Assembly: GCF_003515075.1 (NCBI RefSeq)
Contig: NZ_QWLV01000002.1
Location: forward strand, 1 to 64,000
Reading direction: 5' to 3'
Origin: Sphingomonas gilva
Lineage (GTDB): Bacteria; Pseudomonadota; Alphaproteobacteria; Sphingomonadales; Sphingomonadaceae
Length of the DNA: 64,000 nt
Each line of letters begins with the position of its first letter. Positions within the stretch are counted from its first letter, which is position 1. The notes under the pieces are model-generated. The model was given only the letters and a program-made list of their open reading frames with translations. It did no database searches and was not told the origin of the DNA. The position numbers and the translations under genes were made by a program. This document shows, piece by piece, positions 1 through 2,874 of this stretch.

Positions 1-343
1 TTAGAACAGGGTCGTGACGGAGCGGATTTTGGCGCCAGGCTAGGAGCAAGGAGGGAGCGATGCCGAAGCATCGTGACCGACGCGCGGCCGGGCCCCCGCA
101 AAGTAATACTTTGCGGGGAGCCCCGACGCCGCATGGCGCCAAAAGCCGCCCGCCGCCGGAGGCGGTCGCCCATGGAAGGCCACCGGATGTGCAGGTGGAA
201 CGATGCCCCGCATCGTTCCAGCCGTGTCCGGGGGACACGGCGGCCTGCACATCCGTCGCTTGCTTGCGCGTAGCGTCAGCTACGCGACTGCGCTGCGCTT
301 CTTGTCGGTGGCCTTCCATGGGCGATCACGATCCCTGTTCTAA
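1..343. repeat. Composite nested-palindrome element, non-coding
   Basis: No credible gene lies here. The stretch is bounded by near-inverted ends: TTAGAACAGGGTCGTGA at 1-17 and its complement, with one extra base, at 326-343. A second pair nests inside (22-37 with 134-149, one mismatch), and a perfect 19-bp pair encloses the right half (167-185 with 306-324). An 11-bp pair follows (185-195 with 244-254). Simple hairpins sit between these: 58-73 (6-bp stem), 94-118 (12-bp stem, 1-nt centre), 196-220 (11-bp stem, 3-nt loop), 222-240 (8-bp stem) and 268-285 (7-bp stem). Almost every base can pair. The element ends 13 bp past the stop of the neighbouring fusion-protein gene. Its left end coincides with the window edge, so it may extend further. 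Confidence 0.85.
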
Positions 344-356
344 CCGAGTTTGGAGC

Positions 357-1418
357 CTAGTTCCCTGCCTGCACTTGCGGCCGCGCCGGCTGCGCGTTCT
401 GCGCGCCCGCCAGGCGCACCCGCTGGCCGTCGGTCAGCTTGACCACGCCTTCGGTGACCACGCGCGTGCCGGGGCGCAGGCCGTCGGTCACCTCCACCAT
501 GCCGTTCTGGCGCAGCCCGGTTGCGACCTTGGTCCGCCGGGCGACGCCCTTGTCGAGCGTAAAGACGAAACTGTCCTGGCCTTCACCGACGATGGCGAGC
601 TCCGGCACCGCCGGCGAGGTGCGCGCGGCGGATTCGATGCCGACGGTCAGCAGCATGCCGGGCTTCAGCTTGCGATCAATGTTGGGCAGGATCGCGCGCA
701 CGGTGACCGCGCGGGTTTCGGGATTGAGCACGGGATCGATCGTGTCGATCGACCCCCGGAAGGGCTGTTCGGGATAGGCGGCCGAGCGCGCCTCGATCGG
801 CTGTCCGGGCGCGATCGCCGAGAGCAGGGTCTCGGGCACGGTGAAATCGAGCTTGATCCGCGAGATGTCGCTGATCGTCGCGATCTCCGTCCCCGCGCTC
901 ACCACCGCGCCCGCCGAGATGTTGCGAAGCGACGCATAGCCGCTGAAGGGCGCGCGAATGACCCGATCGCTGATCGAGGCGCGCGCTTCCGACGCCTGCG
1001 CACGCGCCTGGCCGGCGAGCGCGGTCTGCTGATCGACCGCGCTCGCGGTGGCGAAACCGCGGGCGCGCAACGCCTCCAGCCGATCGAGCTGCTTGTTCGC
1101 CTCGCGCGCCACGGCGCTCGCCTGGGCGAGCTGGGCGGTCTCCTGCCCCGTCGCCAGCGTGGCGATGGTCTGCCCGCGCGAGACATATTCACCGTCGCTG
1201 AAGTTCAAGCGGACGATGCGCTCGGTCACCGGCGCGGTGAGCGTCACCTGTTCGTTGGCGCGCGCCGTTCCGACCGCCTCGATCCGCTCGACGAAGCGGG
1301 TCGGCTGGACCGCGGCGGCGGTCACCAGCGGCGGCTCGCGACCGGCCTTGGTCTGGGCGTCCGAGTTGCCGCAAGCGGCAGTGGCGAGGGCGAGAGCGCC
1401 CAGAGCTAGGGTTCGCAT
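357..1418 (-). CDS. RND efflux periplasmic adaptor (membrane fusion lipoprotein)
   Basis: This 353-aa protein belongs to the HlyD/AcrA-type adaptors that link an inner-membrane RND pump to an outer-membrane channel. The start was placed at the ATG giving a lipoprotein signal, MRTLALGALALATAAC, with the lipidated Cys at residue 16; the frame is open further upstream but lacks signal character. The pattern that follows is a biotinyl-lipoyl-like half domain, an alanine/glutamine-rich helical hairpin (about residues 85-150), the second lipoyl half, and beta-barrel and membrane-proximal domains ending around residue 345. No pump or channel gene lies beside it in the window. The downstream side, where the pump would be expected, is occupied by the palindromic element, though a pump gene could lie beyond the window edge. 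It sits 46 bp behind tlyA and may be co-transcribed. Family certain, substrate unknown. Confidence 0.9.
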   Translation of the reverse strand: MRTLALGALALATAACGNSDAQTKAGREPPLVTAAAVQPTRFVERIEAVGTARANEQVTLTAPVTERIVRLNFSDGEYVSRGQTIATLATGQETAQLAQASAVAREANKQLDRLEALRARGFATASAVDQQTALAGQARAQASEARASISDRVIRAPFSGYASLRNISAGAVVSAGTEIATISDISRIKLDFTVPETLLSAIAPGQPIEARSAAYPEQPFRGSIDTIDPVLNPETRAVTVRAILPNIDRKLKPGMLLTVGIESAARTSPAVPELAIVGEGQDSFVFTLDKGVARRTKVATGLRQNGMVEVTDGLRPGTRVVTEGVVKLTDGQRVRLAGAQNAQPARPQVQAGN

Positions 1419-1464: not shown

Positions 1465-2208
1465 CTAGAATGCGGCGATCCGCGTCGCCGCGAGCAGGAA
1501 TTCAACATTACCCTCCGGTCCGGTAATCGGGCTGGGAACGACGCCCCCAACACGCCAGCCCCGAGACTGTATCCATTCAACCACTTGCTGAATGACGCGT
1601 TCATGAACGGCGGCGTCACGCACCACCCCGCCTTTGCCGACCTCATCGCGCCCCGCCTCGAACTGCGGTTTTATCAGCGCGATCAGCTGGCCGCCGGGTT
1701 TGACGAAATCGAGCGGCTTTTCAAGTACTTTCGCAAGCCCGATGAAGCTGGCGTCGCAGACGACCAGGTCGATCGGTTCCGGGATGTGCGCGGCGGTCAA
1801 GATGCGCGCGCTGGTTTTTTCATGGACGACGACGCGAGAATCCTGCCGCAGCTTCCAGGCGAGCTGGTTGGTGCCGCTGTCGACCGCATAGACGCGGGCC
1901 GCGCCTTTGGTCAGCAATACGTCGGTGAAGCCGCCGGTCGACGAGCCGACGTCGATCGCCACCGCGTCCGCGACGTCCCAGCCGAAATGGTCGAGCGCAT
2001 GGGCGAGCTTGATCCCGCCGCGCGACACCCAGGGGTGATCGCGCCCGCGCACATCGAGCGGCGCATCCGGCGAAAGCTGCTGCCCCGCCTTGTCGATCCG
2101 CCGGTCGCCCGAGAACACCAGCCCCGCCAGGATCAGCGCCTGCGCGCGCGCACGGCTTTCGACGAGCCCGCGATCGACGAGGAGTTGGTCGGCGCGGTGT
2201 TTAGGCAT
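1465..2208 (-). CDS. tlyA: TlyA family rRNA 2'-O-methyltransferase / hemolysin-like protein
   Basis: The 247-aa protein has an N-terminal S4 RNA-binding domain (about residues 3-60) followed by an FtsJ-like SAM methyltransferase domain. The SAM loop AIDVGSSTGGFTD starts near residue 83, and a VVCDASFI motif follows around residue 150. TlyA proteins 2'-O-methylate cytidines in 16S and/or 23S rRNA; some are annotated as hemolysins. The length fits the family. Its ATG lies 8 nt inside the end of the upstream vapC gene, so the two are probably translated together. No terminator is seen before the efflux adaptor gene downstream. Confidence 0.92.
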   Translation of the reverse strand: MPKHRADQLLVDRGLVESRARAQALILAGLVFSGDRRIDKAGQQLSPDAPLDVRGRDHPWVSRGGIKLAHALDHFGWDVADAVAIDVGSSTGGFTDVLLTKGAARVYAVDSGTNQLAWKLRQDSRVVVHEKTSARILTAAHIPEPIDLVVCDASFIGLAKVLEKPLDFVKPGGQLIALIKPQFEAGRDEVGKGGVVRDAAVHERVIQQVVEWIQSRGWRVGGVVPSPITGPEGNVEFLLAATRIAAF

Positions 2209-2605
2209 GGAAGGGATTCACGATGCGCAAACGGCCGTCGATGACGAGGCCGTGCTGCATGTCTTCCGAATAGAGGATGTCGCAATCCGCCATGAAAGCC
2301 GCGGCGACGATCATGCCATCATAAACGGACAGCCGCTTCTCGTCGGCGATCATCAGACCCAACCGATGCAGGTCGGTGTCGAGCGGCAAAATGGGATGGC
2401 ACAGTCCGGTGACAATGGAGAGCGCTTCGCCGATCCGGTCAAACCCCATACCGAGCTTGCGGCGCGCCACCGATGCAAACTCGTTGAGGCATTGTACGCT
2501 TATAGCGCCACCTTCCTCGAGAATGGCTTGAGCGCGCAGTGAACGCGGATCGGCGAAGGCATAGCCATAAAGCAGCACATTGCTGTCGAAGAAGGCCCGC
2601 CTCAA
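2201..2605 (-). CDS. vapC: VapC-like PIN-domain ribonuclease toxin
   Basis: This 134-aa PIN-domain protein would act as a Mg-dependent endoribonuclease. The expected acidic residues are visible: Asp7 in FFDSN, Glu42 in NEFAS, Asp96 in VYDGMIVAAA and Asp115 in SEDM. It overlaps the upstream AbrB-type antitoxin gene by 4 nt (2602-2605) and the downstream tlyA start by 8 nt, giving a tightly packed three-gene string. The AbrB partner makes this a VapBC-type toxin-antitoxin module. The cellular RNA target cannot be told from sequence. Confidence 0.92.
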   Translation of the reverse strand: MRRAFFDSNVLLYGYAFADPRSLRAQAILEEGGAISVQCLNEFASVARRKLGMGFDRIGEALSIVTGLCHPILPLDTDLHRLGLMIADEKRLSVYDGMIVAAAFMADCDILYSEDMQHGLVIDGRLRIVNPFHA

Positions 2606-2835
2606 CGCGCGTTCGCTTCATCGCGATCGAACTTGTAGTCCTTGGGGAAGGGTACGGCGAGCTTGCGCATGCGCTGGATCAGCGCCTTGCGGCGCTGCTG
2701 TTCGGTAATGATCGCCACAGCGCCCGAATCCAGCGCTTGCAAGTCGACATCGTCCCCTTCCTTCAATCCCAGTTCCCGCACGACATCGGCGGGAATGCGG
2801 ACGGCCAAACTATTGCCCCAGCGTGCGACGATCAT
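2602..2835 (-). CDS. vapB: VapB-like AbrB/MazE-fold antitoxin
   Basis: A 77-aa antitoxin. The N-terminal swapped-hairpin AbrB DNA-binding domain (about residues 1-48: MIVARWGNSLAVRIP, then GLKEGDDVDL) is followed by a charged C-terminal tail ending FDRDEANAR that would wrap the toxin. The start was chosen at the ATG with GGAGGAC five bases upstream, not the longer frame beginning inside the operator. A perfect dyad (2851-2874) just upstream of the ribosome-binding site is the likely autoregulatory site. The gene overlaps vapC by 4 nt. Confidence 0.92.
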   Translation of the reverse strand: MIVARWGNSLAVRIPADVVRELGLKEGDDVDLQALDSGAVAIITEQQRRKALIQRMRKLAVPFPKDYKFDRDEANAR

Positions 2836-2850
2836 GTTTTGTCCTCCATG

Positions 2851-2874
2851 GATATACATTCGCAAATGTATATC
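2851..2874 (-). promoter_or_regulatory. VapBC operator/promoter, perfect inverted repeat
   Basis: Two 10-bp arms, GATATACATT and AATGTATATC, flank a 4-bp centre in the immediate upstream region of vapB. The arms contain a TATACAT-like -10 element, so bound VapBC complex would cover the promoter. AbrB-type antitoxins typically bind such dyads cooperatively with the toxin. Binding here is inferred. Confidence 0.75.

Follow-up and report, generated by a model that had tools for sequence, protein, structure and literature searches.

A palindromic mobile element of Sphingomonadales with a conserved folded core, variable arms and IS5-like tips

In ordinary MITEs, the ends are kept and the interior is variable. 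For short palindromic repeats of Alphaproteobacteria, among them the CGTC REPs, no mover is known (PMC3733652). The insertion sequences (ISs) of the IS427 group in Paracoccus measure about 830–865 bp, and most of them produce 2-bp duplications (PMC3281130). Here, we describe a palindromic element that is unusual in that its middle is conserved, its arms are variable yet still complementary, and other hairpin elements are nested inside it. Its tips point to a concrete enzyme family, and its empty insertion sites are plain. A literature search found no description of this element; subscription journals were mostly outside the coverage of that search.

The window copy and its nested modules

The window is the whole analyzed stretch of 64,000 nucleotides, i.e., positions 1–64,000 of contig C10 in a 3.54-Mb assembly of 17 contigs (hereafter, the host genome, G000). 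A sequence-only reading had described positions 1–343 as nested palindromes too ordered to be chance. Nested inverted repeats are indeed present: the inner pair (166–185/306–325) is perfect, although it spans 20 bp and not the 19 bp claimed, and further perfect 12-mer pairs stand at 94–105/107–118 and 184–195/244–255. Folded as a single strand, 1–343 reached −239.2 kcal/mol, compared with −153.6 ± 6.4 for 100 dinucleotide shuffles, none of which was equally good (0/100; z = −13.3). This rules out chance GC-rich pairing as the source of the self-complementarity, in line with the claim of order beyond chance. The end arms of 1–343 pair with one bulged base in the fold, but the palindromic stretch, real as it is, does not coincide with the element: judged from other copies, which read AGGG...CCCT, each end lies about 15 bp beyond the stretch.

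The right end of the element is at 358, with CTAG at 357–360, and the left end lies beyond the window. The final 127 bases of contig C16 are identical to window 1–127, and the left arm on C16 is the same arm variant as the right arm in the window, found nowhere else among the loci examined. From these 127 identical bases and the common arm variant, we infer that the end of C16 and the start of the window are parts of one copy (joined copy, L025), a join made from sequence. Window 1–358, with boundaries set from other copies and flanks, is one copy of a palindromic mobile element of about 270 bp, as far as it lies in the window, enlarged by two inserted hairpin modules.

All parts of this copy are given on the plus strand. 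The outer stem P1 begins with the inner part of its left arm (1–18, from the fold), of which about 15 bp lie on C16. The P2 domain (19–150; stem about 19–36/135–150, from the fold and alignments A1/A2) contains the conserved stretch AGGAGCAAGGAGGGAGCGATG at 42–62 (95% mean pairwise identity in A1/A2) and the first module, a hairpin at 86–123, which is missing from most other aligned copies. P3, a small hairpin supported by the fold and the consensus, occupies 150–165. P4 (166–325) consists of the inner inverted-repeat pair, also present in the consensus, plus a tip, and holds the second, Y-shaped module (186–253; stem GATGTGCAGG/CCTGCACATC and two hairpins), directly followed by CGTC at 254–257. 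The right arm of P1 (326–358) has the outer end ...GAGTTTGGAGCCT, an IS5-like tip. Open frames are present in this copy.

Both modules were recognized by comparing copies with and without them. For the Y-module, the comparison involved orthologous copies in relatives: L200 carries the module, and L196 has five bases instead, adjoining CGTC. Other Y-modules with different stems occur at other sites in L021, L036, L083, and L139. Sequences related to module 86–123 stand alone elsewhere in the host genome and in G003. Small stand-alone hairpin repeats akin to this module were seen at L039–L044, L078, and L079, the first six of which adjoin CGTC/GACG. Two further observations concern other repeats. 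A second palindromic repeat of about 155 bp (L101, 6640–6794), multicopy in the three genomes searched, seems to lie within a hairpin loop, the hairpin being short in L184 and L191. In L027, a solo end-like piece (TTGGGTTTGGACCCTAG) stands in the right flank about 33 bp past an intact copy.

The neighboring HlyD/CusB-type membrane-fusion (adaptor) gene (357–1418, minus strand; PF16576, 1.5e-33) lies outside the element and ends in the TAG stop provided by the CTAG at the insertion border. It had been called an orphan, but this was an effect of the contig break: across the element, on C16, an AcrB-type pump gene on the same strand begins five bases past the element's other end (start TTG, as given by the ORF listing). 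Via the putative C16–C10 join, the window copy would be an insertion between two genes of an RND efflux pair. The arm variant of this copy places GGAG eight bases before the TTG of the pump, and it is a guess that this GGAG acts as the ribosome-binding site of the pump. Elsewhere in the window (2201–2865), PIN-domain and MazE-type genes stand side by side, likely a toxin–antitoxin pair.

Dispersed copies, empty sites and insertion target

We found at least 53 BLAST matches to the window stretch in the host genome, where 40 of 81 candidates were scored. The genome holds about 17 copies of the element: 13 complete at both ends, L038 in truncated form, and six contig-end parts, which were counted as about three copies. 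Six of the 34 contig ends of the assembly lie inside element copies (C4, C9, C10, C11, C13, and C16), and the assembly breaks at these contigs because element copies are there; the element thus explains these contig breaks.

In a first search of relatives, 26 of 61 genomes matched, some in a module only. Of 296 genomes of the order searched with a covariance model of P2 (E = 1e-4), 49 matched; because scoring covered about 11 candidates per genome, the copy numbers are lower bounds. Across the class, the P2 model matched 13 of the 289 genomes searched, the host genome among them. Beyond the order, the full architecture is present in L280 (TTT^AGGAGCC..GGCTCCT^AAG, carets marking the borders), and L279, L292, and L286 have a compact form of about 105 bp; in the 14 others of the 18 class-wide loci inspected, a motif scan run apart from the exact model hits came upon no recognizable element. 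An exact 21-mer of P2 occurred in 81 stretches of named genomes, and its carriers among the matches listed belong to Sphingomonadales, except one Arthrobacter. That record, titled Arthrobacter sp. TPD3018, contains the element (L124) and is possibly mislabelled. Plasmids and phages gave no match to window 1–360, and viral contigs contained no exact 21-mer.

Insertion was examined with 30 loci fetched from four related genomes (Sphingomonas mali, S. asaccharolytica, S. pruni, and a pasture MAG). The joined flanks of 15 copies with script-placed ends served as queries; a sixteenth copy, L220, was unplaced. For all 15 queries, one or more of the three other genomes contained a matching uninterrupted (empty) site, with identities of 74–76% for L206 and best identities of 84–93% for all others. 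For thirteen copies, the fetched empty sites were aligned base by base at the junction. For example, L194 reads GGTT^AGGG..CCCT^ACC, and the empty site reads GGCT^AGC in three genomes; and L217 was inserted in GAGGCCCTAGGGCCG. The center of the empty sites is not always TA (T^G in L127, A^T in L198). Apart from these copies, L101 has empty sites in two genomes. A miniature mobile element had been one of the natures proposed for the stretch, with further copies and empty sites as the checks; the dispersed copies and empty sites bear this proposal out, and the finding that would have spoken against it, a lack of further copies, is contradicted. The element has features of a MITE, namely a length below 500 bp, terminal inverted repeats, many dispersed copies, and insertion demonstrated by empty sites.

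In the flanks of copies, element borders read (C/T)T^AGGG ... CCCT^A(G/A). Over 190 borders, position −2 is C or T and position −1 is T (63%), ahead of an A that is biased by the finder, which required A. The insertion sites tend toward CT^AG. Because CTAG is palindromic, duplications of 0, 2, or 4 bp would give identical sequence there. A reading without duplication, based on 96% A inside versus 63% T outside the border, was dropped because the finder itself required A; a by-eye count in A1 gave about 60/64 for the inner and about 48/64 for the outer border positions. When stop codons were considered as the target, an open frame ended exactly at the border in 39 of 119 callable flanks (of 210), with border frames of 54:35:30; this slight excess may stem from the T before AG. 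Flanking genes pointed toward the element in 64 cases and away from it in 94, and 48 were not callable, using a rough GC3 method.

Conserved core, variable arms and IS5-like tips

The consensus, built from 32 insert-free copies of 13 genomes, is a junction at which four parts meet: P1, the outer stem; P2, a long arm whose helix is irregular and purine-rich; P3, a small hairpin; and P4, another long arm. Of 3,121 cells in the consensus stems, 97.7% are paired. The four terminal bases and AGGAGC..GATG of P2 have a mean pairwise identity of 95%, compared with 58% and 56% for the two arms. Element length was 262–275 bp in 80 of the 106 elements placed by the finder script in all loci examined by then, mostly 267–272 bp; longer elements carry inserts, and shorter ones are without parts. 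P4 is shortened or absent in several shorter relatives (about 150–215 bp) and, from these, looks like a module.

Changes on both sides occur at 55 of the 98 consensus pairs, the covariation score is 0.379 (0.127 after shuffling; no more than 0.069 when partners are slid), and G-U pairs are nearly fixed at two inner sites (30/32 and 31/32 copies). These features would be expected of a dispersed functional RNA or RNA-level regulator under selection for RNA pairing. We nevertheless regard this reading as quite improbable. Across the outer 31 pairs of 97 distinct elements, 2,776 of 2,959 cells are Watson–Crick (96 gaps set aside), and the others comprise 85 A-C, 44 G-U, and 54 further cells, whereas RNA selection on this strand should favor G-U; taken for the opposite strand, these counts would amount to a 2:1 excess of G-U, which leaves RNA transcribed from that side possible. 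Moreover, L028 and L077 carry the P4 tip in inverted orientation, and Rfam gave no match on the element up to E = 1 and none at gathering scores on 7 loci. The earlier suggestion of a structured RNA is thus not favored by pair statistics or Rfam.

Arms differ widely among near-equal cores. Between L021 and L035 of the host genome, the first 66 bases of P2 are 98% identical and the arm 59%; between L022 and the window copy (L025), the P2 start is 95% and the arm 50% identical. In nine comparable pairs of elements with 96–98% identical P2, arm differences are two-sided at 47 positions and one-sided at 23, and the ratio of both-sided to one-sided changes in single pairs ranges from 0:1 and 1:5 to 15:2. 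Such pairs permit asking whether an arm swap also swaps the mobilizing transposase. Together with the conservation of the folded middle, its irregular purine-rich helices, and the two nearly fixed G-U pairs, these differences would also suit a mover other than an IS transposase, i.e., an unknown enzyme or host repair recognizing the folded single strand or cruciform, with IS5-like tips as remnants or convergence. We consider this unlikely, as the tips match IS5 ends beyond their first six bases, including ends found independently of the arms.

This match was assessed with 83 distinct AGGG/AGGC arms compared with 15 IS5 ends over 20 bases, the null keeping the first 6 arm bases and shuffling the remainder. 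The mean best identity was 14.3/20 (null, 11.0), and 35 of the 83 arms reached at least 15/20 with an IS5 end (null, 1.7–1.75%), with 48 below this value. Without the four IS5 ends found by arm search, 28 of 83 arms did so (null, 1.3%); when the set was restricted to the eight ends from loci retrieved via transposase, 25 of 83 did (null, 1.1%). These eight were selected by eye because they start with TAGG, a feature that the null retains. Of the nine IS5 loci retrieved in this way, four had ends placed and the other five had none. When near-identical arms were counted once, 10, 7, and 6 of 40 arms qualified for the three end sets (null, 0.9–1.2%). The IS match concerns the outer arm halves, with the inner halves matched to no IS. 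The claim that the stretch does not look like a known insertion sequence therefore holds for the middle, but not for the tips, which resemble the terminal repeats of an IS5-family IS.

Searching plasmids with an arm of 37 bases yielded seven weak hits (E about 1–5); a second arm gave no hit and a third four weak hits. Of the four plasmid hits inspected, all in Alphaproteobacteria, L316, L317, and L319 run from about 18–23 matched bases into an IS5-family transposase, and L318 showed no IS5-family transposase. Plasmid L317, from Sphingomonadaceae, holds two different IS5 copies, with ends AGGGTCCAAACTCAATCA and AGGGTCAGGACCCATTGAT, which resemble arms of copies from two different hosts: the former is like the main arm class of the host genome, and the latter is like the arms of the S. 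adhaesiva copies (L091 and L105, 17/20 each). The transposase pieces on this plasmid belong to the IS5 family (NCBIfam NF033580; Pfam DUF4096/DDE_Tnp_1) and lie in three frames, so the IS copy is probably decayed. One IS on this plasmid is 829 bp; this size and the CTAG-leaning target fit the IS427 group. By tblastn against the fetched loci and the window, IS5 transposase pieces appeared in only three plasmid loci and, weakly, in one locus from the IS110 search; among the stretches of the host genome covered (its fetched loci and the window), none gave an IS5 transposase match.

In favor of a MITE of the IS630/Tc1-mariner type are the TAGAG start of 9 of 10 IS630-family ISs with placed ends and a 184-bp relative in L105 that matches an IS630 end at 17/20. 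However, the 83 AGGG/AGGC arms scored 10.1/20 against 20 IS630 ends (null, 10.0), i.e., without similarity beyond six bases, one of six AGAG arms reached 15/20 with an IS630 end, and PF13358 had no match in the host genome (matches in 9 of 37 genomes); we judge this type of MITE very improbable. IS630 as the source of the main arm class, suggested by the IS ends of L254, did not hold up in the shuffled-arm tests.

The same core thus occurs with different arms, many of them like several IS5-family ends and at least one like an IS630 end, and it is found also outside the order. One tentative reading, which we hold possible without favoring it, is that the conserved foldback core swaps its ends, as one passenger riding several transposases, and that the core is the selected, recognized unit.

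Proposed mobilization and comparison with known systems

We propose that this is probably a non-autonomous, MITE-like element moved in trans by an IS5-family transposase, with the trans step read from the likeness of the ends. The element would consist of a foldback core (P2, P3, and P4) between complementary arms of about 36 bp, the outer 18 bp or so of which are, by resemblance, IS5-family (IS427-group-like) terminal inverted repeats. A transposase acting in trans would recognize both matching tips and insert the element at CTAG-like sites. Both arms would change together since both tips must fit the same enzyme, and this fit of both ends to one transposase would explain the paired change of the tips. 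Recombination among copies may additionally exchange arms and loop modules, and such exchange would explain the change of arms en bloc.

Among known systems, REPINs (REP with RAYT), as described in PMC3116915, are likewise palindromic and dispersed, and show compensatory changes in hairpin stems, including those in REPIN spacers. On these grounds, a REPIN/RAYT-type element moved by a Y1 tyrosine transposase might be considered, but we find it scarcely credible: the present element is much larger, its ends are variable and its middle conserved (the reverse of REPINs), and the Y1 family model PF01797 matched 8 of the 37 genomes searched and had no match in the host genome, which rules out a resident RAYT visible to that model. 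A resident IS110 or retro-element mover visible to the family models is likewise ruled out by the lack of matches in the host genome to the IS110 DEDD transposase (PF01548, 0) and reverse transcriptase (PF00078, 0) models.

The CGTC-tagged REPs of Alphaproteobacteria (PMC3733652) resemble only the nested modules, through the CGTC tag that follows the Y-module and the CGTC/GACG beside L039–L044. The Tn3-derived TIMEs, according to PMC4133298, are similar in measuring about 260 bp, lacking a transposase gene, having matching transposon ends, and adopting a stable predicted fold; they have Tn3-type 38-bp ends and are usually single copy, whereas this element has IS5-like tips and many copies. MITEs of the IS5 family (IS427 group) and the IS427 group itself share with the element tips like AGGGTCCAAACTCAATCA, a CTAG-leaning target, and, for the MITEs, a length below 500 bp. 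In contrast to IS427-group MITEs, the element has complementary arms of about 36 bp that are highly variable, a conserved folded core (compared with IS interiors within the fetched loci only), and nested palindromes.
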